This document shows positions 45,127 to 55,235 of a stretch of 55,235 bases of DNA, in pieces. The notes under the pieces were generated by a model. That model searched no databases. It worked only from the letters and a program-made list of their open reading frames with translations, and had not been told where the DNA came from. The position numbers and the translations under genes are program-made. Source of the stretch: Clostridia bacterium (GTDB lineage: Bacteria; Bacillota; Clostridia; Oscillospirales; Acutalibacteraceae); the NCBI GenBank assembly GCA_017521425.1, contig JAFXCQ010000011.1:1-55235 (forward strand). The letters are read 5' to 3'. The stretch's first letter is position 1; each line of letters begins with the position of its first letter.

Positions 45127-45166
45127 CCAAAAAAATACACACCCTATTGGGTGTGCATTTTTTTGG
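45127..45166. terminator. Bidirectional terminator
   Basis: CCAAAAAAATACACACCC and its near complement, with A and T runs on either side, between convergent genes. Confidence 0.85.
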
Positions 45167-45190: not shown

Positions 45191-46621
45191 CTACGCAATT
45201 CGTTCTCTTGCTCTTTTGACAATCTCAAGCACTGTATCAAATGAAATCTCGTTACCTTTTTCTTCTTCAGAAATCAATCCATATCTGAATGCTTTATTTG
45301 AAATGTCCTTAAATAACTTTTCTACACTCTCATCATCATGTTCTAAATATGCTAAGTATAAGATCGTAGTGTTCCTCATTATTATATCATAATCAAAACA
45401 ATTTTTTGCATAATGTCCGTTCGTGTCAATCGCTCTAAGACAATCTTTAGGCAACATATGTGCAACAACATTTATAAATTTGATTATTTCATTTTCAGAA
45501 TATGCACTAGAAAAAATAGTGTCATGTGCCTTTGACCTACTAACATCATCATAAACAGTCATGAGCTCACGAGTCAAATTGCAATTATTCCTTTCTTTCA
45601 GTGCCCATTGACCATTATAGGAAATAAAACATTCTTTCAATTCTGGGTGCTCATTTATTACATTTTTATATTCTTCTTCTGTAAAAATACAACAAGAAAG
45701 TCCTCCGGGTGTTTCATTATTTAAGTGAATAAAATCCTGACCTTTATGAGAAAGATCCAAACGCAATTCATAACAATCATAATTGGGATAGCCATATAAT
45801 ATCTGTAATCTTGTTGTGTTATCATTTTTTGTTCGTTCACATAATGGTTTTGATGTATCCGTATAAAGTATGTTAACACTTGTGGCTATTATTCTCCCAT
45901 TTTTTAATATATGAAACAACTTATTATACATATCATTTGCAATTCCATTTACCTCAGCATCAAAACATGGCGAATGTTTTAAAATTTGGCATATCGTTAC
46001 AAAATACAATGCATTTATTCTTGTTTGAAACTCATACTTCAATATCATTGTTACTATTCGCAACAAAGCTTTATCATATTCTAAACAATCCGAAGATATC
46101 ACAAGCAACTTCAAAAATTTTATATAATCTCTCGGAGAAAAACTCTCTGCAGAATCATACATTGTATTTTCTAATGAAAAAACATTTTTATACATACACT
46201 CATAAGTTGCTGTAATAGCATTTACCATATCGAATAAATGATTTACAGAATTAAATATACAAATATTTTCTTCAACTTCTTCCTCTTCTGTACTATCAAA
46301 AATATCTTCTAAATTTTTATATGCAAAATAAACTTTAATTATCGCATCAAAGAAGGTGTTTTTGAAATACCCACCACAATCAATTACATCTTCACCAAAT
46401 TGTATTATAGCTTGCTCAAATGGAAAGCAAACATCACTCTCAAGAGCTTTATAAAGCAAGTCAAAATCCACCTCTAAAAAATATGCGATTTCTTGAATTT
46501 GCTCTTCCTTCAATGCATATATTGGTGCTGCCCCATAAGCTATTGCTAAAGTGTAAATGGTTTTTTCATAATCTGAAAGACTTTGCTCGCAAAAAATGTA
46601 TGGTTCCATATTAAACTTCAT
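45191..46621 (-). CDS. Hypothetical protein, second gene of the DUF4062 module
   Basis: 476 residues from an ATG behind GGAGGG. Soluble, helical and acidic, with no transmembrane segment. The early half is rich in Phe, Leu and Tyr helices, and SYNGQWALKERNNC and DIIMRNTTILYL stand out in the later half. No family or catalytic motif is recognised. It lies 46 bases after the DUF4062 gene on the same strand, so they form an operon. It could be an effector, sensor or immunity partner of that protein. Confidence 0.6.
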   Translation of the reverse strand: MKFNMEPYIFCEQSLSDYEKTIYTLAIAYGAAPIYALKEEQIQEIAYFLEVDFDLLYKALESDVCFPFEQAIIQFGEDVIDCGGYFKNTFFDAIIKVYFAYKNLEDIFDSTEEEEVEENICIFNSVNHLFDMVNAITATYECMYKNVFSLENTMYDSAESFSPRDYIKFLKLLVISSDCLEYDKALLRIVTMILKYEFQTRINALYFVTICQILKHSPCFDAEVNGIANDMYNKLFHILKNGRIIATSVNILYTDTSKPLCERTKNDNTTRLQILYGYPNYDCYELRLDLSHKGQDFIHLNNETPGGLSCCIFTEEEYKNVINEHPELKECFISYNGQWALKERNNCNLTRELMTVYDDVSRSKAHDTIFSSAYSENEIIKFINVVAHMLPKDCLRAIDTNGHYAKNCFDYDIIMRNTTILYLAYLEHDDESVEKLFKDISNKAFRYGLISEEEKGNEISFDTVLEIVKRARERIA

Positions 46622-46667
46622 TTTTTCCCTCCTTTTTGAAAATTGTAATTTTTCTCATTCACAATAT

Positions 46668-49460
46668 TCACGTTTTGCCTTTAATCTCTGAACAAACTAA
46701 CCTTACAACATAATTTGCATCGTTTTCACATTTTGAAATTATGTACTCTCTTGTTCTTTCCATAATACCTTCTGACGAATTCATATTTTGTAATATTAAA
46801 TTCTTAATATACACACTTTCATTATCAACAAGATTAATTAGCTTATTATTAATTATATTCCGATTATTCGGATTCCTTAATAATTTAATTAAAATTCTTG
46901 TCGCATTCCATCTTATATCTAGATGGTCTGAATTCAACCATTGCAAAACATTTTGTAAAAGAACTATTTCGATATTTTCAGGGAATTTAACCATATCATT
47001 ATTTTCTAAATATTTGATAATCATTCCAACAACAGAAATTGTCGTTGGTGTATCATTTTGTATATATGGAAATAATTCTAACAATTTTACATAAGTATCT
47101 TTGCCCATAGCTGTATACAATAGTTGCAACCCAATTTTTAATGATATTTTATTTACATTAGAAAGCATTGGAAAACTTATATCCGCTTCTATGTTTTTCC
47201 CTTCTTGAAATATTTTTTCAAATAATTCTATATTTCTTTTATAATCCTCATCAAAATTCAAAACTATAGTTATTAGAAGTGATATCGCATCAAGTTTTAT
47301 AAGCAAATTTTCTTTTGAATTCAAAAGAGTATCGCAGGTTACAGAAATTACTGAATCTAAAATATCTGGTAAACATTGAACCTCTTTTGCAATTAATATA
47401 GATCTTATAACTGCTATATCTCTTACCCCTCGACTAAAATAAGTTCCGTTTTTCCCTTGGTTCTTATTTTTTTCACGAACATTTTCTACATATTGCTGCA
47501 CAAATATTGGTAAATCAATTTGTTCATTTTCTGTAGTTTCTAACTTATAATCTCCATTATAATAACTTGGAAGATACTCTAAAATTGCTTTATCCAATTC
47601 TTCAGTCAAGTTTCTATTTTGTTTTCTGAAACCACATAAAAAAACCGGCGAATATTTAATTTGTTCAAGTTCATTTTCATCTTTTAAAACAATTAAAATG
47701 TGCTCTATTAAATTTTTAGCAAAAGATTCACTCATCTTATTAAGATCAACTTTTTGAAGAAGTTTAAATATATCAGTGTACCATCTACTGTAATGATTAT
47801 CCATAAACATACAACAGATTTCTGAAACAACATCTTGTGACATCCTGTGTAAAACATTTGATAAACAATAAAAAATACTTTGTCCAAGATAAATCGTAGC
47901 ATTTTCTTCTTGAATCCAAACTTTAATTTCTGATACAAGTTCACTCTCTAATTCGTTGTATTTTTTGTCAGCAAGATAATACCCTACAACGCCGAATCCA
48001 ATCAATTGGCTAATTAATCTCTTATACTTAATCGGATGATTATTACAATACTCCATTACCTCCTCTGCATCCTTTTCAGACATATTATTTAATATTTCTG
48101 GATATGAATCTAAAAGTGCTTTTACTTCTTTTTCTTTCCCTTCATACACAGCTATTTTGAGCATTCCGAATTTAAAGGACCAATCACTATATTTATTACT
48201 TAAATAAAACAGAAAGTTTTTTATTTTCTCGTGTAATAATAATATATGGGTTAGCGAACCATTATAAATAGAAACAATATACAAACTTGCAATCAAATCA
48301 CCATATACTTCCAAGTTATTCCCCATTGAAACGGTATATGGAGAAGTTGTTTTTTCTTTATAAAAACCTTCTATATACCTTTCATTCAGTGACTCATTAA
48401 TTCTATCAAGAACAGGATAGTATAACTCCTCGCTACTTTCTGTTAACTCTTTTTGGGCTTCGCTTTCCCAAAAAGAATTCTTAATTATCCCTAAAGTTAA
48501 ACTTTGATTCCTTAAATCTACTAAAATGTCTTTAATTATCCATGGTGAACAGTTTGTTTCCTTTGCAAGTTTCAGTGCAGATTCTAAATATTCAATACAT
48601 TTCTCGATATCACCCAAAAAATATGACTGTATTGCTTGCCAACGTATCTTTATAATTTCAAAATGGCCTTTTGCTTGAGACTTGGCAAGACAATCTAAAA
48701 ACATTCCTGTATTAAATTGTTTTATTGAAGTTCCTTTCAGCAATACAGATAAAAATTGGTGCCCCCACTCATCTATTTCACTTGTATTTTCTATTTGTTC
48801 TGTAAAAGTATGATATGTTTCACCAATTACATATTCTAAAAGATAGCCTTTACATTTATCTATATTTTTTAAAATTGTTTTAGGCATTGTAGGGAGATAT
48901 GTTTCTTCTGAACCTACAATATCTATTCCTTGATATTCGAATTTACCATCAACATATCTTTCAGAGATTTTGTTTGTACAATAATAGTGATAGATATCAA
49001 CAATATCATTAACAAGAGCTTGTGCTCCATCGTAACTCAATTCATCAAATTTATTTACTGTTTTGCTTTTTGCAAATTGTGCACCCATAAGATTTTGTTC
49101 AACAGCTGTTTTTTCTTTAGAAGTTTCATCGCAGAAGTAATAAAGTGCTTTTATCCTATGCTTTTTTACCGTATCAATTTCTACTTGTACTCCAGGAGTA
49201 ACACCATCAGCATTATCAATTAAAAAAATACATACATCGCTATCCTCTAGTGCCCAAGTATAATGAGAACCTGCTGTTAATGTAGAGGCTCCCCTATCTT
49301 CAAACAAATACACTTCAGCCAAATTTGTGCTTTCAATGGCTTCTTTTAATTCTGCTCGAACACGGTCATACTTCGCCTTATCTCCGCATATTGAACTAAT
49401 AAAAACTTTAATTTTTCTTTCAGGCTTTATTACTGTTCTGGGTGTTTTTTCTCCAGTCAT
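46668..49460 (-). CDS. DUF4062-domain protein with long helical repeat tail
   Basis: 930 residues from ATG behind GAGAGGTG. The N-terminal 150 residues form a DUF4062 domain (a TIR/Rossmann-like alpha/beta fold): IKVFISSICGDKAKYDRVR, then SDVCIFLIDN and EIDTVKKHRIKALYYF. The remaining 780 residues look like helical TPR/HEAT-type repeats. No P-loop (GxxGxGKS) is visible, so unlike many DUF4062 defence proteins it is not a STAND NTPase. DUF4062 often heads proteins in antiphage islands. With a partner gene and mobile neighbours, a defence function is inferred. Confidence 0.72.
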   Translation of the reverse strand: MTGEKTPRTVIKPERKIKVFISSICGDKAKYDRVRAELKEAIESTNLAEVYLFEDRGASTLTAGSHYTWALEDSDVCIFLIDNADGVTPGVQVEIDTVKKHRIKALYYFCDETSKEKTAVEQNLMGAQFAKSKTVNKFDELSYDGAQALVNDIVDIYHYYCTNKISERYVDGKFEYQGIDIVGSEETYLPTMPKTILKNIDKCKGYLLEYVIGETYHTFTEQIENTSEIDEWGHQFLSVLLKGTSIKQFNTGMFLDCLAKSQAKGHFEIIKIRWQAIQSYFLGDIEKCIEYLESALKLAKETNCSPWIIKDILVDLRNQSLTLGIIKNSFWESEAQKELTESSEELYYPVLDRINESLNERYIEGFYKEKTTSPYTVSMGNNLEVYGDLIASLYIVSIYNGSLTHILLLHEKIKNFLFYLSNKYSDWSFKFGMLKIAVYEGKEKEVKALLDSYPEILNNMSEKDAEEVMEYCNNHPIKYKRLISQLIGFGVVGYYLADKKYNELESELVSEIKVWIQEENATIYLGQSIFYCLSNVLHRMSQDVVSEICCMFMDNHYSRWYTDIFKLLQKVDLNKMSESFAKNLIEHILIVLKDENELEQIKYSPVFLCGFRKQNRNLTEELDKAILEYLPSYYNGDYKLETTENEQIDLPIFVQQYVENVREKNKNQGKNGTYFSRGVRDIAVIRSILIAKEVQCLPDILDSVISVTCDTLLNSKENLLIKLDAISLLITIVLNFDEDYKRNIELFEKIFQEGKNIEADISFPMLSNVNKISLKIGLQLLYTAMGKDTYVKLLELFPYIQNDTPTTISVVGMIIKYLENNDMVKFPENIEIVLLQNVLQWLNSDHLDIRWNATRILIKLLRNPNNRNIINNKLINLVDNESVYIKNLILQNMNSSEGIMERTREYIISKCENDANYVVRLVCSEIKGKT

Positions 49461-49543
49461 AAAACACACCTCTCTTTTACAATCTATATAATTATTTTAT
49501 CATAGAATGAAATAATTCGCAATAAAACACTACAGAAACAATA

Positions 49544-49592
49544 ATACCTACAAACAAAACTAACTCGTCTGATTTGTTTGTAGGTATTTGTC
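49544..49592. terminator. Terminator after the winged-helix remnant
   Basis: ATACCTACAAACAAA and its complement flank a 22-base loop region, followed by TTGTC. It serves the - strand remnant gene. Confidence 0.65.
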
Positions 49593-49595
49593 AAT

Positions 49596-49782
49596 TTATT
49601 TTACTGTTATATATTTTTGATTTTTACTATTGGGTTTTTCTGGAACAGTCATTGAAATTCGACCTTGTTCTATTAATGGATTGAGATGTTTTCTAACAGT
49701 TCTCTTATCACTATATCCCAACATCTTTAAAATCTCCAAAATACTTTTTGGTTCTTTACAAAAAACTAAAACTTTTCTTCGG
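49596..49782 (-). pseudogene. C-terminal winged-helix remnant of an interrupted gene
   Basis: About 60 residues reading VFCKEPKSILEILKMLGY, then HLNPLIEQGRISMTVPEKP and NQKYITVK, a winged helix found at the C-terminus of AlbA/Fic-like ATP-binding regulators. The 5' part of the frame is replaced by the end of the recombinase gene, read in another frame, so the original gene was cut by the mobile element. The break is at about 49770-49780. Confidence 0.7.
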
Positions 49783-51388
49783 CAGAAATACCACCTTTTA
49801 GTACAACTATAATCCTTCGGTCTTTCATCACTCTTATGCACTCTACAAGTCTTCTAATTATAATATTATCAAACTCATCAAACGAAACATCGGCATCTCG
49901 AAACATAGAAATAATCCTATTAAACTCACTATTTGCTCTTTCATCTAATATTGATGATTTTTCTGCAATTTCAAGTTTATCTCTTAAAACTTGAATTTGA
50001 TTAAACTTGTTTTTTATTTCGTTTAAATACCTATCTGTATTTCCGCCTGTACTTTTCATTAAGTGCATTAAATCTTCTGCCTGCTCAGTCAAATCACTAA
50101 TTTGACTTTCAATTACATATGCGTCACAGGAATTTGAAGAATTACTTATAACGAATCGCAAATTGTTTTCCAACAATCTTAAAGTATCATCCTTATTACT
50201 AAATAGTTTATTTAGACATCTACATATTGCTGCATGTAGTTTCTGTTCTTCTGCTCCTACTGCATCACATATTTCGTGTCCGTGTTCTATCCTATTGAGG
50301 CATCTCCATACATATTGTCTTTTCCCTCTTTTGGTTTTTCCTGTTCTCCGATAAGCACTACCGCACTCACCACACACCAACAATTCAGAAAGGGCATATT
50401 TACCACTATACTTTGCTTGCTCTGTTATTCCTAAAGATGAACGCTTATGCCTATTACTCCTTCGTGCCAATTCCATTTGAACTTCGTTAAACTTAACTCT
50501 ATCAATAATTGCAGGATGATTATTTGAAACAAGATATTTAGGTAACTCCCCTCTATTTATTCTTGTTTTCTTTGAAAGACAATCAGGCCTGTACGTCTTC
50601 TGCAATATTAAATCTCCCACATATTTTTCATTTTGCAACATAGATCTTATTATTTTTTTATCCCATACAGATTTACCTGTCAATGTTTTATAATTGTTTT
50701 TTTCAAGATAAGTTTTAATCTGGTCAACACTATATCCATCTAAATATCTATCAAAAATAATTCTAACTACCTCTGCCTGTTCAGGTATTATTTTAGGAAC
50801 TCCGTCTTCTCCTCGTCTATAACCAAAACAAGTAAAATTTGAACAATATTTACCACAACGCATACTCTGGTGAATACCCCATTTAACATTGGCACTTATG
50901 TTTTCGCTTTCAGCTTGTGCAATAACACTGAACAAACCAATAAGCATTTCATTTTCAGCTTTTAGGGAGTCGATTGCTTGTTCTTCAAAATATACCCCTA
51001 TGTTCATAGCACGAAGCTTTCTTACCCAGCTAAGACTATCAACGGTATTTCTGGCAAAACGAGAAATTGACTTGGTTAATATCATATCAATTTTGCCTTT
51101 TTCGCAATCTCTCATCAATCGCAAGAAATCTTTTCGTTTAGTAGTAACCGTACCTGTAATACCTTCATCTGCATAAACACCTGCAAATGTCCAACTCGGA
51201 TTTTTTGCAATTGCTTCCGTATAATAAGCTATCTGTGATTCATAACTGTTCAACTGCTCTTCTTCATCAGTTGATACACGACAGTAAGCAGCTACTCGAA
51301 GTTTTGTGTTCATTCTGTTATTTTGGACTAATAATGGATTTGCCTCTATTTTGGTTACTCTTTTTTCTAAATCAACTTGCATTTTCAA
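49766..51388 (-). CDS. Large serine recombinase 1
   Basis: 540 residues. Resolvase domain with AAYCRVSTDEEEQ (catalytic Ser39), YADEGITGT and KSISRFARNT. The recombinase domain follows (FGYRRGEDGVPKIIPEQAEVV), then a zinc ribbon CGECGSAY with RCLN and HEIC, and a coiled coil (about 405-480). Its stop lies exactly at the joint with the winged-helix remnant. It overlaps the next upstream gene by 17 bases. It should catalyse integration and excision of the element. Confidence 0.92.
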   Translation of the reverse strand: MKMQVDLEKRVTKIEANPLLVQNNRMNTKLRVAAYCRVSTDEEEQLNSYESQIAYYTEAIAKNPSWTFAGVYADEGITGTVTTKRKDFLRLMRDCEKGKIDMILTKSISRFARNTVDSLSWVRKLRAMNIGVYFEEQAIDSLKAENEMLIGLFSVIAQAESENISANVKWGIHQSMRCGKYCSNFTCFGYRRGEDGVPKIIPEQAEVVRIIFDRYLDGYSVDQIKTYLEKNNYKTLTGKSVWDKKIIRSMLQNEKYVGDLILQKTYRPDCLSKKTRINRGELPKYLVSNNHPAIIDRVKFNEVQMELARRSNRHKRSSLGITEQAKYSGKYALSELLVCGECGSAYRRTGKTKRGKRQYVWRCLNRIEHGHEICDAVGAEEQKLHAAICRCLNKLFSNKDDTLRLLENNLRFVISNSSNSCDAYVIESQISDLTEQAEDLMHLMKSTGGNTDRYLNEIKNKFNQIQVLRDKLEIAEKSSILDERANSEFNRIISMFRDADVSFDEFDNIIIRRLVECIRVMKDRRIIVVLKGGISAEEKF

Positions 51389-52238
51389 CGACTCCCTTCT
51401 TTGTTATTTTTGAATTATTTATAAAAACTGATGTTATACTACCATCAGAATTTATTATTACTTGTTTTATGTATTCTTTCATTTCATTATATTGGATACT
51501 TTCAACAACTGAAATGTCGCATATCTCTTCTTTTAATTCGTCTGTAATTTCCCCACTATCGAACTTACAACAATCAAATCTTATCTTTGCAATATTTAAG
51601 ATACCATTTGCTATTGTTTTGTAATCAAGTTCAGGTTGCTCCAACAGTCTAATAAGTTCATTTTCCCCCTTAGTTACTTCTATTGTCGGTTGGTATTGTG
51701 AATTTGCAATAACATTAAAGAGTTCCAAATTTCTTACACCACTATTAAAATTATCTGTTACTGCTTTTTCAAGCGTGTCATCATCAATATATTTTAAACA
51801 ATTACAACCTTTCGAGCACATCCACTTTTCTCTTGAACCCCAAGTGTTCACTCTTTTATATCTGCTACCACATTCACCACAAATTGTTATTTTTCTTAAC
51901 AATTCTACTTTTGGAGAGTGTTTTTCCTGTTTACAGGATTTTTTCTCTTTTATTGATTTTGCTTTATCGAACAATGAAGTTGAAATAATCATAGGATAAA
52001 TTTCATTACCCATATACTTTTCATTTTCAAGCATTCTATTAATCGTGTTTTTATTCCATTTAACTTCATCTTGAAAATACACAATTTTTTTCTCGGTGAG
52101 CATAGAAGCAATACTATTAAGTGTATTCCCTTCAACATATAAAGAAAAGACTTCTTTCACAACCTCTGATTCTTCGTCGTGAACTACTGTTTTTCCATTT
52201 TTCACCTGATAACCATAGAGCGTTGTTCGTATTGCCAT
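51372..52238 (-). CDS. Recombinase-like protein lacking the catalytic domain
   Basis: 288 residues. Starts directly in the recombinase domain (LYGYQVKNGKTVVHDEESEV) and has the zinc ribbon CGECGSRYKR with CSKGC. The resolvase domain with catalytic Ser is missing, and there is no in-frame remnant of it upstream because the previous gene ends one base before. It is probably a DNA-binding helper, such as a directionality or targeting factor for its two full-length neighbours. Confidence 0.85.
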   Translation of the reverse strand: MAIRTTLYGYQVKNGKTVVHDEESEVVKEVFSLYVEGNTLNSIASMLTEKKIVYFQDEVKWNKNTINRMLENEKYMGNEIYPMIISTSLFDKAKSIKEKKSCKQEKHSPKVELLRKITICGECGSRYKRVNTWGSREKWMCSKGCNCLKYIDDDTLEKAVTDNFNSGVRNLELFNVIANSQYQPTIEVTKGENELIRLLEQPELDYKTIANGILNIAKIRFDCCKFDSGEITDELKEEICDISVVESIQYNEMKEYIKQVIINSDGSITSVFINNSKITKKGVVENAS

Positions 52239-53795
52239 TTATCGCACCTCTTTCATATTAGTTTTAAGTTGCAAACCACCTTTTAATTTAAAGGTTACTG
52301 CACCATTATTCCCAACAATAACTTTATCAACAACCGATAAAAATAAAGATTTATCAAATCGTAAAATGACTTTTGGATATTCACACAATATCTCTTTTAA
52401 AACTCTTAATCCCTCTATAAGTTTTTCATCTTCATTTGCATTCAATATTTTTAATCTTTTTCTTCTAAGTTCTGTTATTTTATGTTTCAATTCAGAAGTT
52501 CTTTCAAGGTAAGAAACATCGTCAATTATTCCAGTTGTATGAAGCTCTGTGTAAGTATTATTTTTATTACAAAGATTGGCTATTTCAATATCAATTTGAG
52601 AAATCTCACTATTTTGTCTTGCAATTTTTTCTCGAAGATTTAGCAGTTGTTTTAAAGTATTATCGACTATTTCTTTTTCAAATCTCCTCAACTTGTTATA
52701 CATCTGCACAAATGCTTTTTCTATTTCATCTTCACTGATATTCTTGCTACTACAAGAATGACCAGCCATTCTCTTTCTTGAACACACCCAATAAACAACT
52801 TCATTTTGTATCTTTCTTTTGTATGACCATCCACACTCTTCACATTCAATTAGCCCAGTAAAGAAATGCTTCTGTGGAGCTTTTCTAACTCTTGTAACTT
52901 GCTTCATTCTAAATTGAACAAGTTCAAACATTTCACGTGTGATTATAGCTTTATGAGAATTGGAAACATAATATCTATCAAGCTCCCCTTTGTTAGGAAT
53001 ATTTTTTAATGGAAGCATTTGTGGCGTGTATGTCTTTTGCAACAAACTATCCCCTATATACTTTTCGTTTGTTAAAATGTATCTTATTCCTGGTATCGAC
53101 CAGTTACCAAACACATTTTGAATACCCTCATCATTTAAAATGGACACGATTTTTGCAATTCCGTTACCGGTAAGATAAAGTTCAAAAATTTTTTTTACTA
53201 CTTCTGCTTCTTCAGGAACAATCAAAAGGTGGCTTTCTTTATCAAGTCTATAGCCATAAGGAGCATTGCAGGTGATAAATTCACCATTTTCCATTTTCAT
53301 ACGGATAGCCGTTGACACTCTTTTTGAACCCGCTAATGCCTCACTCTGTGCAAAAGCACTTTTTACATAAAGAATAAGTTCTGAATTCATTATTTGGGTA
53401 TCAACATTGTCATTTTCAAATAGCACCGTAACACCAAAAGAACGAAGTGTTCTTATTGATTCAAGACATTCAAGAGAATTTCTAGCAAATCTTGAGACAC
53501 TTTTTACAAAGATTCGATCTAATTTCCCATTAGAAGCATCTTTCATCATTCTTTTGAACTCATCTCTCTTATTCACACAAGTTCCTGTTATTCCCTCATC
53601 TGCATATATATCAACCAATTCCATTTTAGGGTTAGTCATAATATATTCTGTATAATATCTAAACTGTGCCGAAAAAGAATTTGTTTGGTCCTCAGAATCA
53701 GTACTGACACGACAATAAGCTGCAACCCGTTCTTTCCCTTGCTGATTCATTTGTGTTATTGTTGGCTGAATCATTTTTACAATTCTCTCTGTCAT
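52239..53795 (-). CDS. Large serine recombinase 2
   Basis: 518 residues from ATG behind GAGGAGG; an earlier in-frame codon at 53822 precedes this site. AAYCRVSTDSEDQ gives Ser31; ADEGITGT, KSVSRFARNS, then the recombinase domain (APYGYRLDKESHLLIVPEEAEVV in two halves) and a zinc ribbon CEECGWSYKR with CSRKR. It is a paralogue of the 49766 recombinase with about the same layout. It ends one base before the middle gene. Confidence 0.92.
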   Translation of the reverse strand: MTERIVKMIQPTITQMNQQGKERVAAYCRVSTDSEDQTNSFSAQFRYYTEYIMTNPKMELVDIYADEGITGTCVNKRDEFKRMMKDASNGKLDRIFVKSVSRFARNSLECLESIRTLRSFGVTVLFENDNVDTQIMNSELILYVKSAFAQSEALAGSKRVSTAIRMKMENGEFITCNAPYGYRLDKESHLLIVPEEAEVVKKIFELYLTGNGIAKIVSILNDEGIQNVFGNWSIPGIRYILTNEKYIGDSLLQKTYTPQMLPLKNIPNKGELDRYYVSNSHKAIITREMFELVQFRMKQVTRVRKAPQKHFFTGLIECEECGWSYKRKIQNEVVYWVCSRKRMAGHSCSSKNISEDEIEKAFVQMYNKLRRFEKEIVDNTLKQLLNLREKIARQNSEISQIDIEIANLCNKNNTYTELHTTGIIDDVSYLERTSELKHKITELRRKRLKILNANEDEKLIEGLRVLKEILCEYPKVILRFDKSLFLSVVDKVIVGNNGAVTFKLKGGLQLKTNMKEVR

Positions 53796-53858
53796 ATCAT
53801 TACCTCCTCTTTTGTACCACATTATATCTATTAATTTTTTAAAAATCCCAGGTGCGAT

Positions 53859-54014
53859 TTATCCAATTGGAAGATAATCGCACATTAAAGTCTCAGCATT
53901 TCTCTTGTTCACTTTTTCAACAAGCACCTCATCTATTTTTCCTTCATTAAAGATTTTTTTGAGCATCCCCCAAGCAGCAAGGTATATCATTTGTTTCTTT
54001 ATTGCATCTTCCAT
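53859..54014 (-). CDS. Small SHOCT-like peptide
   Basis: 51 residues: MEDAIKKQMIYLAAWGMLKK, then IFNEGKIDEVLVEKVNKRNA. The AAWGMLKK.IFNEGKID pattern is that of SHOCT domains, often encoded near recombinases. GGAGACAATT lies upstream. It is between mazF and the recombinases, in the same operon. Role unknown, perhaps oligomerisation or a recombination accessory factor. Confidence 0.72.
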   Translation of the reverse strand: MEDAIKKQMIYLAAWGMLKKIFNEGKIDEVLVEKVNKRNAETLMCDYLPIG

Positions 54015-54029
54015 TTATAATTGTCTCCT

Positions 54030-54377
54030 CTATTCCAAACCTAAACTAATTTTTATAGCATTATCTACTTCTTCCATAATTGAAGAAGGTATCGTCCCAA
54101 CAAATTTTAATATTTGTTGTTTATCTATAGTGGTAATTTGTTCGAGTTGTATAATTGATTCTTTTGATAATCCTTCAATATTTATAACAATGTGTGTCGG
54201 CATTTTGCGTTTCTTTTCAGATTTACTTGTAATTGTTGCAACAATAAGCGTTGTGCTGTGTTTATTACCTGTATCATTCTGAATAACTACAACCGGTCTC
54301 ATTCCTGCCTGAACTGAACCTATCATTAAATCAAAATCAACATAATAAATGTCTCCTCGTTTTACATTTTCTTCCAT
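54030..54377 (-). CDS. MazF/PemK-family endoribonuclease toxin-like
   Basis: 115 residues: VKRGDIYYVDFD opens the SH3-like barrel, RPVVVIQND follows, and LIVATITSK and IIQLEQITTIDKQQI end the fold. MazF-type toxins cut mRNA. No MazE-like antitoxin gene is adjacent; the next genes are the SHOCT peptide and the recombinases. It may act as a regulator or maintenance factor of the element. GAGGAGG precedes the ATG. Confidence 0.88.
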   Translation of the reverse strand: MEENVKRGDIYYVDFDLMIGSVQAGMRPVVVIQNDTGNKHSTTLIVATITSKSEKKRKMPTHIVINIEGLSKESIIQLEQITTIDKQQILKFVGTIPSSIMEEVDNAIKISLGLE

Positions 54378-54402
54378 TTCTTTTTTTCCTCCTCTATGTA
54401 AA

Positions 54403-54735
54403 GAAAACTTGCAATTGTCTACAAGTTTTCAAGAAATTTGCAGTATTCTTCCTGTCCCCTGCAAAAGGAAATCTTCAGACGAGTATATGCTTTATACTCT
54501 CATTGGAATCTCACCACCGCCTATTACGTTGCCGGCCACGAACAGAAGTATCATTATTCCTTGTGCTTGTCATCGCCACCATTGGGAGCAACCCAACTTT
54601 CTCCATATAAGTATTTATCGCTCGCTTCTTTTTGGAAGGTCTTGGCGTACCTATGAACACAGCTTAAGGTTTCACCTCAGCACAAGTAACGTATCCGAAG
54701 ATTTGGTATTCAATTTTCAAGGTTCTTTCGAGAGA
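54403..54735 (-). ncRNA. Candidate structured leader RNA of the mazF-recombinase operon
   Basis: A non-coding stretch upstream of mazF, read on the - strand, contains several strong stem-loops: TTGGG/CCCAA (54582-54596), GGAAT/ATTCC (54505-54560), GAGTATA/TATACTC (54481-54499), TTTGCAG/CTGCAAA (54437-54465) and GAAAACTTG/CAAGTTTTC (54403-54430). The last lies just before the mazF ribosome site and is followed by TTTAC, so it may terminate or attenuate. CTTGAAAATTGAATACC (54704-54720) resembles strings of rRNA spacers. GC content is above that of the flanks and no long frame fits. Confidence 0.5.
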
Positions 54736-55024: not shown

Positions 55025-55235
55025 TTATTGTTTTTTCTTTTTCGTCTTCAATTTTATATAACTCAAAATTTGAATATGCATGCCAGATTTTTTTGTCGGA
55101 TTGGTTGTCCACCATTCAGCGAGATTTTCATCTAAAAAGAAATATATACCATCACCTAGCCAATGTTCATCATTAGGTTTATATATAAACCCATTTTTTA
55201 AAATATCATTAACAACACTTGCATCAGTACCATGA
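55025..55235 (-). CDS. ADP-ribosyltransferase-like protein, 3' part
   Basis: The last 69 residues of a gene entering from the right edge. HGTDASVVNDILKNGF and HWLGDGIYFFLDENLAEW show the H-G-T and GIYF motifs of an ART/DUF3990-like fold, common in toxins. After a run of seven A at about 55097, the tail SGMHIQIL fits poorly. The +2 frame gives IWHAYSNFELYKIEDEKEK and a stop at 55017, which reads better. A frameshift at the A run, real or a sequencing error, is likely. Confidence 0.6.
   Translation of the reverse strand, partial: HGTDASVVNDILKNGFIYKPNDEHWLGDGIYFFLDENLAEWWTTNPTKKSGMHIQILSYIKLKTKKKKQ

Follow-up and report, generated by a model that had tools for sequence, protein, structure and literature searches.

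A probable canT-type antiterminator RNA at the head of a mazF-recombinase operon in a Clostridia element

Between orf8 and xis, Tn916 carries a region called canT, which Wirachman and Grossman (2024, PMC11658703) showed to be a processive antiterminator that acts in cis and in a single orientation, most likely as an RNA. It is not complemented in trans, is independent of other Tn916 genes and passes intrinsic terminators. Excision is normal in canT mutants, and genes beyond the terminator T1 are not expressed. According to its authors, the predicted structures of canT are hard to interpret (PMC11658703).

Other known antiterminators share features with the RNA described here. The put RNA of HK022 and the EAR element of Bacillus eps operons, to which we liken it by description, bring about processive antitermination by RNA alone (PMC8955417, PMC11658703). 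The conAn1/conAn2 system of the conjugative element pLS20 likewise has a protein gene, a large RNA and a long operon, and uses RNA-based processive antitermination (PMC8955417). rRNA operons use boxA antitermination (PMC5725501, PMC10931766, PMC12691694), and their boxA, near the 5' end of the transcript, is nearly identical to the site described below; the gamma-proteobacterial boxA consensus is GYTCTTTAANA (PMC5725501).

The window analysed here is the whole of a 55,235-nucleotide contig from a Clostridia bacterium. One of its intergenic regions contains a large leader RNA, the core of which belongs to Rfam family RF02913, 'pemK RNA'. This motif was reportedly described in an earlier paper and has so far been known just as a motif.

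Leader RNA and operon in the window

The interval 54403-54735 is flanked by a PARP-like ORF and a mazF gene, both on the minus strand. The features of the window discussed below are as follows.

55025..55234, minus strand: 69-aa ORF cut by the contig end, similar to the PARP catalytic domain (PF00644, 18.1 bits; cut-off 26.7)
54433..54726, minus strand, 3' limit approximate: whole conserved leader RNA of canT/pemK type (R1 model, RF02913 and fitted consensus helices)
54707..54724, minus strand: boxA-like sequence AACCTTGAAAATTGAATA (22.3 bits with a position weight matrix, PWM, from rRNA leaders)
54558..54726, minus strand: 5' domain (R1 covariance model, 119.6 bits, E 1.2e-18)
54500..54557, minus strand: core, RF02913 'pemK RNA' (55.4 bits; gathering score 34.8)
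54481..54499, minus strand: hairpin conserved on the 3' side of the core (all six consensus pairs present in the window)
54403..54430, minus strand: final hairpin ahead of mazF, not part of the conserved RNA (9 bp, perfect; paired in the minimum free energy structure)
54030..54377, minus strand: mazF/pemK-family gene, first of the operon (PF02452, 110.7 bits)
53859..54014, minus strand: 51-aa ORF (a similar ORF follows mazF in relatives L065 and L071)
52239..53822, minus strand: serine recombinase 1 (PF00239, PF07508, PF13408)
51372..52238, minus strand: serine recombinase 2, lacking the catalytic resolvase domain (PF07508 and PF13408 only)
49766..51388, minus strand: serine recombinase 3 (PF00239, PF07508, PF13408)
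49596..49841, minus strand: 81-aa ORF with a match to the Fic-like C-terminal domain (40.2 bits); it overlaps the end of recombinase 3
49535..49590, minus strand, limits approximate: terminator-like hairpin and T tract, the latter from 49544 (-16.8 kcal/mol, sense strand)
45165..45166, no strand: left edge of the element, where synteny ends (the same-genus genomes G585 and G594 align with the window as far as 45165 and diverge beyond it)

An earlier note on this DNA had pointed out stem-loops in the interval. They are present on the minus strand and run towards the mazF ribosome site (GGAGG, 54388-54392). Two of the stems on that strand are a perfect one of 8 bp, in which 54679-54686 pairs with 54560-54567, and one of 9 bp, in which 54693-54701 pairs with 54472-54480. 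The stem said to lie directly before the ribosome site is the hairpin 54403-54430, with GGAGG following; its conservation was not seen among relatives. The statement that the interval has no reading frame was nearly right: frames of 49 aa on the minus strand and of 72 and 164 aa on the plus strand exist, none of which we take as a gene.

The folding energy of the leader stretch is unremarkable. Its minimum free energy is -88.4, compared with -82.6 +/- 5.9 in 100 dinucleotide shuffles (z = -0.98), and 16 of the 100 shuffles fold as well; the opposite strand gives a z of -1.17. The density of hairpins is thus no evidence by itself, and we rejected hairpin stability and density as arguments for a structured RNA. 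We regard the structured RNA as real because of its homology to RF02913 and to the R1 model of the 5' domain, and because the consensus fold shows covariation.

RF02913 is the only family of Rfam 15 above its gathering score in the leader stretch, and the match spans model positions 1-61 of 61. The window core is of the short type, 58 nt in length, and lacks an extra hairpin that is present in Tn916 and many relatives. The Rfam model covers only about one fifth of the conserved RNA, as homology extends approximately 170 nt beyond the core on its 5' side: when 200 family-level genomes were searched at the DNA level, the two best relatives aligned over query positions 20-246, corresponding to 54726-54500 of the window. 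R1, a covariance model restricted to the 5' domain, was built from 39 of the 48 sequences used for the covariation analysis (see below), without the window, the core or Tn916. Each of the 17 class-level loci that had not been used to train it is found at E <= 0.0065.

The RF02913 RNA is present in 57 of 200 genomes at the family level, 121 of 391 at the class level and 26 of 398 at the phylum level. A strict pattern matched two stretches on viral contigs, and matches were obtained in two phage records and two plasmid records, both of these searches having low sensitivity for the leader RNA. The window's own genome contains a second copy (L002, G000:C14:4891-4990; RF02913 54.2 bits, R1 81.7 bits), which precedes an integrase of the Phage_integrase family and then a second similar ORF.

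The likely genes from mazF to the left edge all read in one direction, over about 9 kb. The 51-aa ORF had been taken for a SHOCT protein; searches of Pfam (E <= 0.05) and NCBIfam (E <= 0.01) gave no match to it. A match to recombinase 2 lies between matches to recombinases 1 and 3 at nine further loci of 97, so this short paralogue appears to have been kept. The putative cargo between the recombinases and the left edge (45191-49469, minus strand) comprises a 933-aa ORF that resembles DUF4062 at a score under the Pfam cut-off and a 476-aa ORF that matches nothing in Pfam or NCBIfam and ends 25 nt short of the edge. The right end of the element, for which a search of the window's own genome gave no clear answer, lies outside the contig.

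Consensus fold and relationship to canT

Covariation was analysed in 48 non-redundant sequences out of 76 having both ends of the RNA, a selection that left out relatives without a 3' motif (GTCGAGGAC), among them the window. We used our own R-scape-like script, which applies a G-test with APC and reshuffles substitutions on a FastTree tree; E-values rest on 60 null alignments. Nine pairs have a covariation E below 0.05. Seven lie within the 79-pair RNAalifold structure and one outside it; we identify an eighth covarying pair, columns 185-270, as the one that closes the Rfam core. In the hairpin corresponding to 54481-54499, two pairs reach E 0.000 and one more 0.067. Covariation supports the consensus fold of the leader RNA. 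The window, added after the fold was made, keeps 59 of 68 gap-free consensus pairs, and five of the nine failing pairs belong to an outer helix that joins boxA to the 3' end.

This outer helix, between boxA and GTCGAGGAC, was drawn by RNAalifold and we do not retain it as a general closing helix. It shows no covariation, only three of eight positions pair in the window, and the 3' motif is present at just 63 of 190 loci; the helix is accordingly taken as limited to some relatives.

With the Rfam match, a covariance model made from homologues, and covariation (from our own script, not from R-scape), the checks proposed in the earlier note have given positive results. Its suggestion of a structured regulatory leader RNA of the element is supported, RF02913 being typed as cis-regulatory in Rfam.

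For comparison with Tn916 we used the family member on pCF10 (L367). Its orf8-xis gap matches RF02913 at 55.0 bits, and directly 5' of this canT core R1 finds the 5' domain at 45.1 bits (E 6e-6). Two mutations made for other reasons have already tested the RF02913 RNA family. canT(S3) is a change of ATA to TGC located 283 nt after the orf8 stop (PMC11658703), and it replaces precisely the ATA with which the RF02913 core opens, core positions 1-3; canT(delta162) spans the core. Each of them abolishes antitermination in a 452-nt canT construct; the effect of S3 was small or absent when the canT fragment was 400 bp long (PMC11658703). The RF02913 core thus offers a reason why S3 kills canT in the longer construct, and the consensus fold is now supplied for RNAs of this type. 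Conversely, the Rfam family is now joined to canT, its one member with bench evidence, and the orphan family gains a likely and testable function because it includes canT.

The window RNA and canT have in common the RF02913 core, the 5' domain, a boxA-like start and a place before recombination genes. They differ in that the core is 58 nt long without the extra hairpin in the window and 101 nt long in Tn916, and in that canT precedes xis-int, whereas the window RNA precedes mazF and three serine recombinases, the recombination module of a Gram-positive mobile element, with the element edge at 45165. The gene order in Tn916 is sigma-like gene, HTH gene, RNA, excisionase, integrase. Many relatives share it, with sigma-like or HTH genes before the RNA and a recombinase or integrase after. 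Counting only loci with at least 900 nt of room, an upstream sigma-like and/or HTH_16 gene is found at 31 of 79 family-level, 32 of 69 named and 16 of 20 class-level loci (79 of 168 together). In the window only about 510 nt lie upstream of the RNA before the contig ends at 55235, and these contain the PARP-like ORF and no Orf7- or Orf8-like genes.

We consider it likely, from this homology and gene order, that the leader is a canT-type antiterminator RNA heading the integration operon of its element. The earlier note had speculated about a control of excision timing; the homologue canT does otherwise, its mutants excising normally and losing expression beyond T1 (PMC11658703). Processive antitermination would fit better than a role in either excision timing or toxin level. 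The available text of PMC11658703 contains neither 'pemK' nor 'Rfam', and 'boxA' has a count of zero in it. None of the papers in the literature searched links pemK RNA to canT.

We also looked for homology to conAn2 of pLS20, which we take to be the gap after gene 28, and found none with either model: there is no RF02913 match near the start of the pLS20 operon, one R1 scan had no match at E <= 1, and the best R1 score among the pLS20 stretches was 12.5 bits (E 0.78), elsewhere in pLS20.

The boxA-like 5' end

The 16S pattern was unmatched in the window's own genome, and for this reason the same-genus genome G057 and the rRNA leaders of the family stand in for the host. The rRNA leader of G057 reads CGAACCTTGAAAATTAAACAACG. 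The 16S pattern was also unmatched in 11 of 25 family genomes; all 22 16S leaders found, from the other 14, contain the site NACCTTGAAAATTAAACAAC, 157-203 nt before the 16S gene; we take this site to be the Gram-positive form of the antitermination boxA. Among 18 class-level genomes, a convincing boxA in the 16S leader was found by the pattern in five and not in the other 13. Judged against these stand-ins, the boxA-like sequence of the window resembles that of a host rRNA leader at its score of 22.3 bits. In Tn916 the boxA-like site reads TGTTCTTTGAAAACTGAATA.

The PWM behind this score is made from eight distinct rRNA sites, three from family genomes and five from class genomes. It replaced an earlier, narrow PWM made from three sites of one family, which had put 43 of 167 loci and 0 of 149 controls above the 99% shuffle level. 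With the eight-site PWM, 125 of 190 loci score above that level (65 of 94 family, 45 of 76 named, 15 of 20 class), compared with 2 of 168 control stretches taken upstream and 2 of 173 taken downstream; seven of 197 loci were left out as their upstream sequence was too short. A run of R1 on 12 rRNA loci was not used: its matches at boxA, in L311 (E 0.3) and L169 (E 0.68), were no better than the noise in L353 and L303.

Given the high frequency of the site compared with the controls, the leader might be understood as an rRNA-type boxA/Nus leader with a mainly anti-Rho function, in which boxA is the active part and the structured region only accessory. Consistent with this, the site persists at 77 of 127 loci without the 3' motif (and is present at 47 of 63 loci with it). 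We find this explanation rather improbable, as canT passes intrinsic terminators and the change S3, which lies in the core, abolishes the activity of the 452-nt fragment (PMC11658703). The active 452-nt fragment, moreover, starts at TTGAAAACTG, inside boxA, unless the vector supplies the rest; this and the 13 class-level genomes without a convincing boxA in the 16S leader speak against a firm role for boxA. Unlike the boxA of rRNA operons, that of the window adjoins a mobile-element RNA, and its use of Nus factors is putative. The role of an rRNA-type boxA in the transcription of mobile elements now becomes directly testable.

The TTGA within boxA was also considered as a -35 element and rejected. 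None of 143 loci has more than four of the six TATAAT matches at a spacing of 16-18 nt; 15 loci have four matches and 80 have three, the background being 8% with four and 1.3% with more. This result bears on the possibility that the interval is a DNA site (attachment site, operator or promoter) with inverted repeats that mimic RNA stems. Such a site would account for the abundant inverted repeats and for the adjoining recombinase genes. We nevertheless regard it as extremely unlikely, given the missing TATAAT, the pairs that covary across 48 non-redundant sequences, the element edge some 9 kb away at 45165, and the orientation specificity of canT (PMC11658703).

Neighbouring genes, terminators and antitermination

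Three sets of loci were compared: a family set of 97 RF02913 loci from the 57 positive family-level genomes, a named set of 80 out of at least 119 named stretches matching the pattern, and a class set of 20 loci chosen among the class-level matches listed. Downstream genes were classified by phmmer with seeds, Pfam-checked except for three of the four integrase seeds, and only within 60-1500 nt; L071, with mazF and recombinases further on, is thus counted as having none.

In the family set, the RNA is followed by a serine recombinase at 28 loci, mazF and a serine recombinase at 15, mazF and a tyrosine integrase at 11, parA-parB at seven, a tyrosine integrase at seven, mazF alone at five, parB at one, mazF and the 51-aa ORF at one, and mazF, the 51-aa ORF and a serine recombinase at one; 16 loci have no seed match and five meet the contig end. 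The named set comprises mazF with a serine recombinase (25), mazF with a tyrosine integrase (16), mazF (11), a tyrosine integrase (11), a serine recombinase (6), the contig end (7) and none (4), and the class set a serine recombinase (9), a tyrosine integrase (6), parA-parB (3) and none (2). The leader RNA is usually accompanied by the module with which a mobile element integrates or transfers and is not tied to mazF, and in this respect the family name 'pemK RNA' is misleading, as the mazF/pemK partner that it implies is often absent.

mazF is found within 1500 nt downstream at 33 of 97 family, 52 of 80 named and 0 of 20 class loci. These figures do not support control of toxin level, which the earlier note had also suggested, as a general job of the RNA: recombinases, integrases or parA-parB take the place of mazF at many loci. 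In favour of a gene-specific cis-regulator of MazF, the reading implied by the family name, which would sense something and set toxin translation or attenuation, mazF is the first gene in the window. In L073, L077, L083 and L091, furthermore, a hairpin of -22 to -24 kcal/mol followed by an identical T tract, TTTTACTTA, separates the RNA from mazF. The association of RNA and mazF is not constant, however; in Tn916 the corresponding place is taken by xis-int, and canT needs no further Tn916 gene (PMC11658703). We therefore think it very unlikely that the RNA is a dedicated MazF regulator.

Terminators between the RNA and the first gene were considered as a proof of antitermination and proved too rare. 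Strong sense terminators are present in 17 of 159 gaps, compared with 9 of the 159 when read antisense and 4 of 477 shuffles; a laxer cut-off gave 31 of 93 sense and 23 of 93 antisense. Since strong terminators occur in just 17 of 159 gaps, our case for antitermination rests on the homology to canT and not on terminators. The same count is relevant to another explanation, a free-standing non-coding RNA that is itself the product, perhaps bound by a protein of the element, with boxA merely ensuring full-length transcription. The fold is indeed large and well conserved, and boxA is typical for long untranslated transcripts (PMC10931766, PMC12691694). Yet no general terminator closes the RNA before the first gene, and canT acts in cis without complementation in trans (PMC11658703), which together make a free-standing product unlikely.

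Under a canT-type mechanism, the RNA would be made at the head of the mazF-recombinase operon and fold while leaving RNA polymerase. It would remain with its polymerase, which would then pass terminators further down. In this way a single promoter could serve all the co-directional genes between the start of mazF and the left edge (about 9 kb), past the hairpin near 49544. Once the element is circular, transcription would perhaps cross the junction into the remaining genes, as in Tn916. The boxA-like 5' end may help by recruiting host NusB-S10 factors of the rRNA type. For the window copy we infer its synthesis and activity, its promoter, the terminators passed and the use of Nus factors from the comparisons above. 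No promoter for the RNA was found in the contig. In some relatives, such as L097, a terminator-like hairpin lies only about 20 nt before boxA, which leaves little room for a promoter between the two. Terminator-like hairpins occur 5' of the core at 40 of 90 family loci, at a distance of approximately 120-380 nt.

More generally, and only tentatively, 'pemK RNA' may be a single widespread canT class of antiterminator that combines an rRNA-type boxA with a large structured RNA travelling with RNA polymerase, by which elements pass insulating terminators along an rRNA-like, Nus-assisted route. As part of the same tentative proposal, the RNA may be interchangeable before serine recombinase, tyrosine integrase, mazF and parA-parB operons, in Clostridia and beyond.

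One closed genome contains a pair of loci (L354-L355, G173:C1:167479-185245) that mark an element of about 17 kb, with the RNA leading into parA-parB at one of its ends. The opposite end has four ORFs named by eye, of which one is mazF-like, two are small and HTH-like and one is integrase-like.
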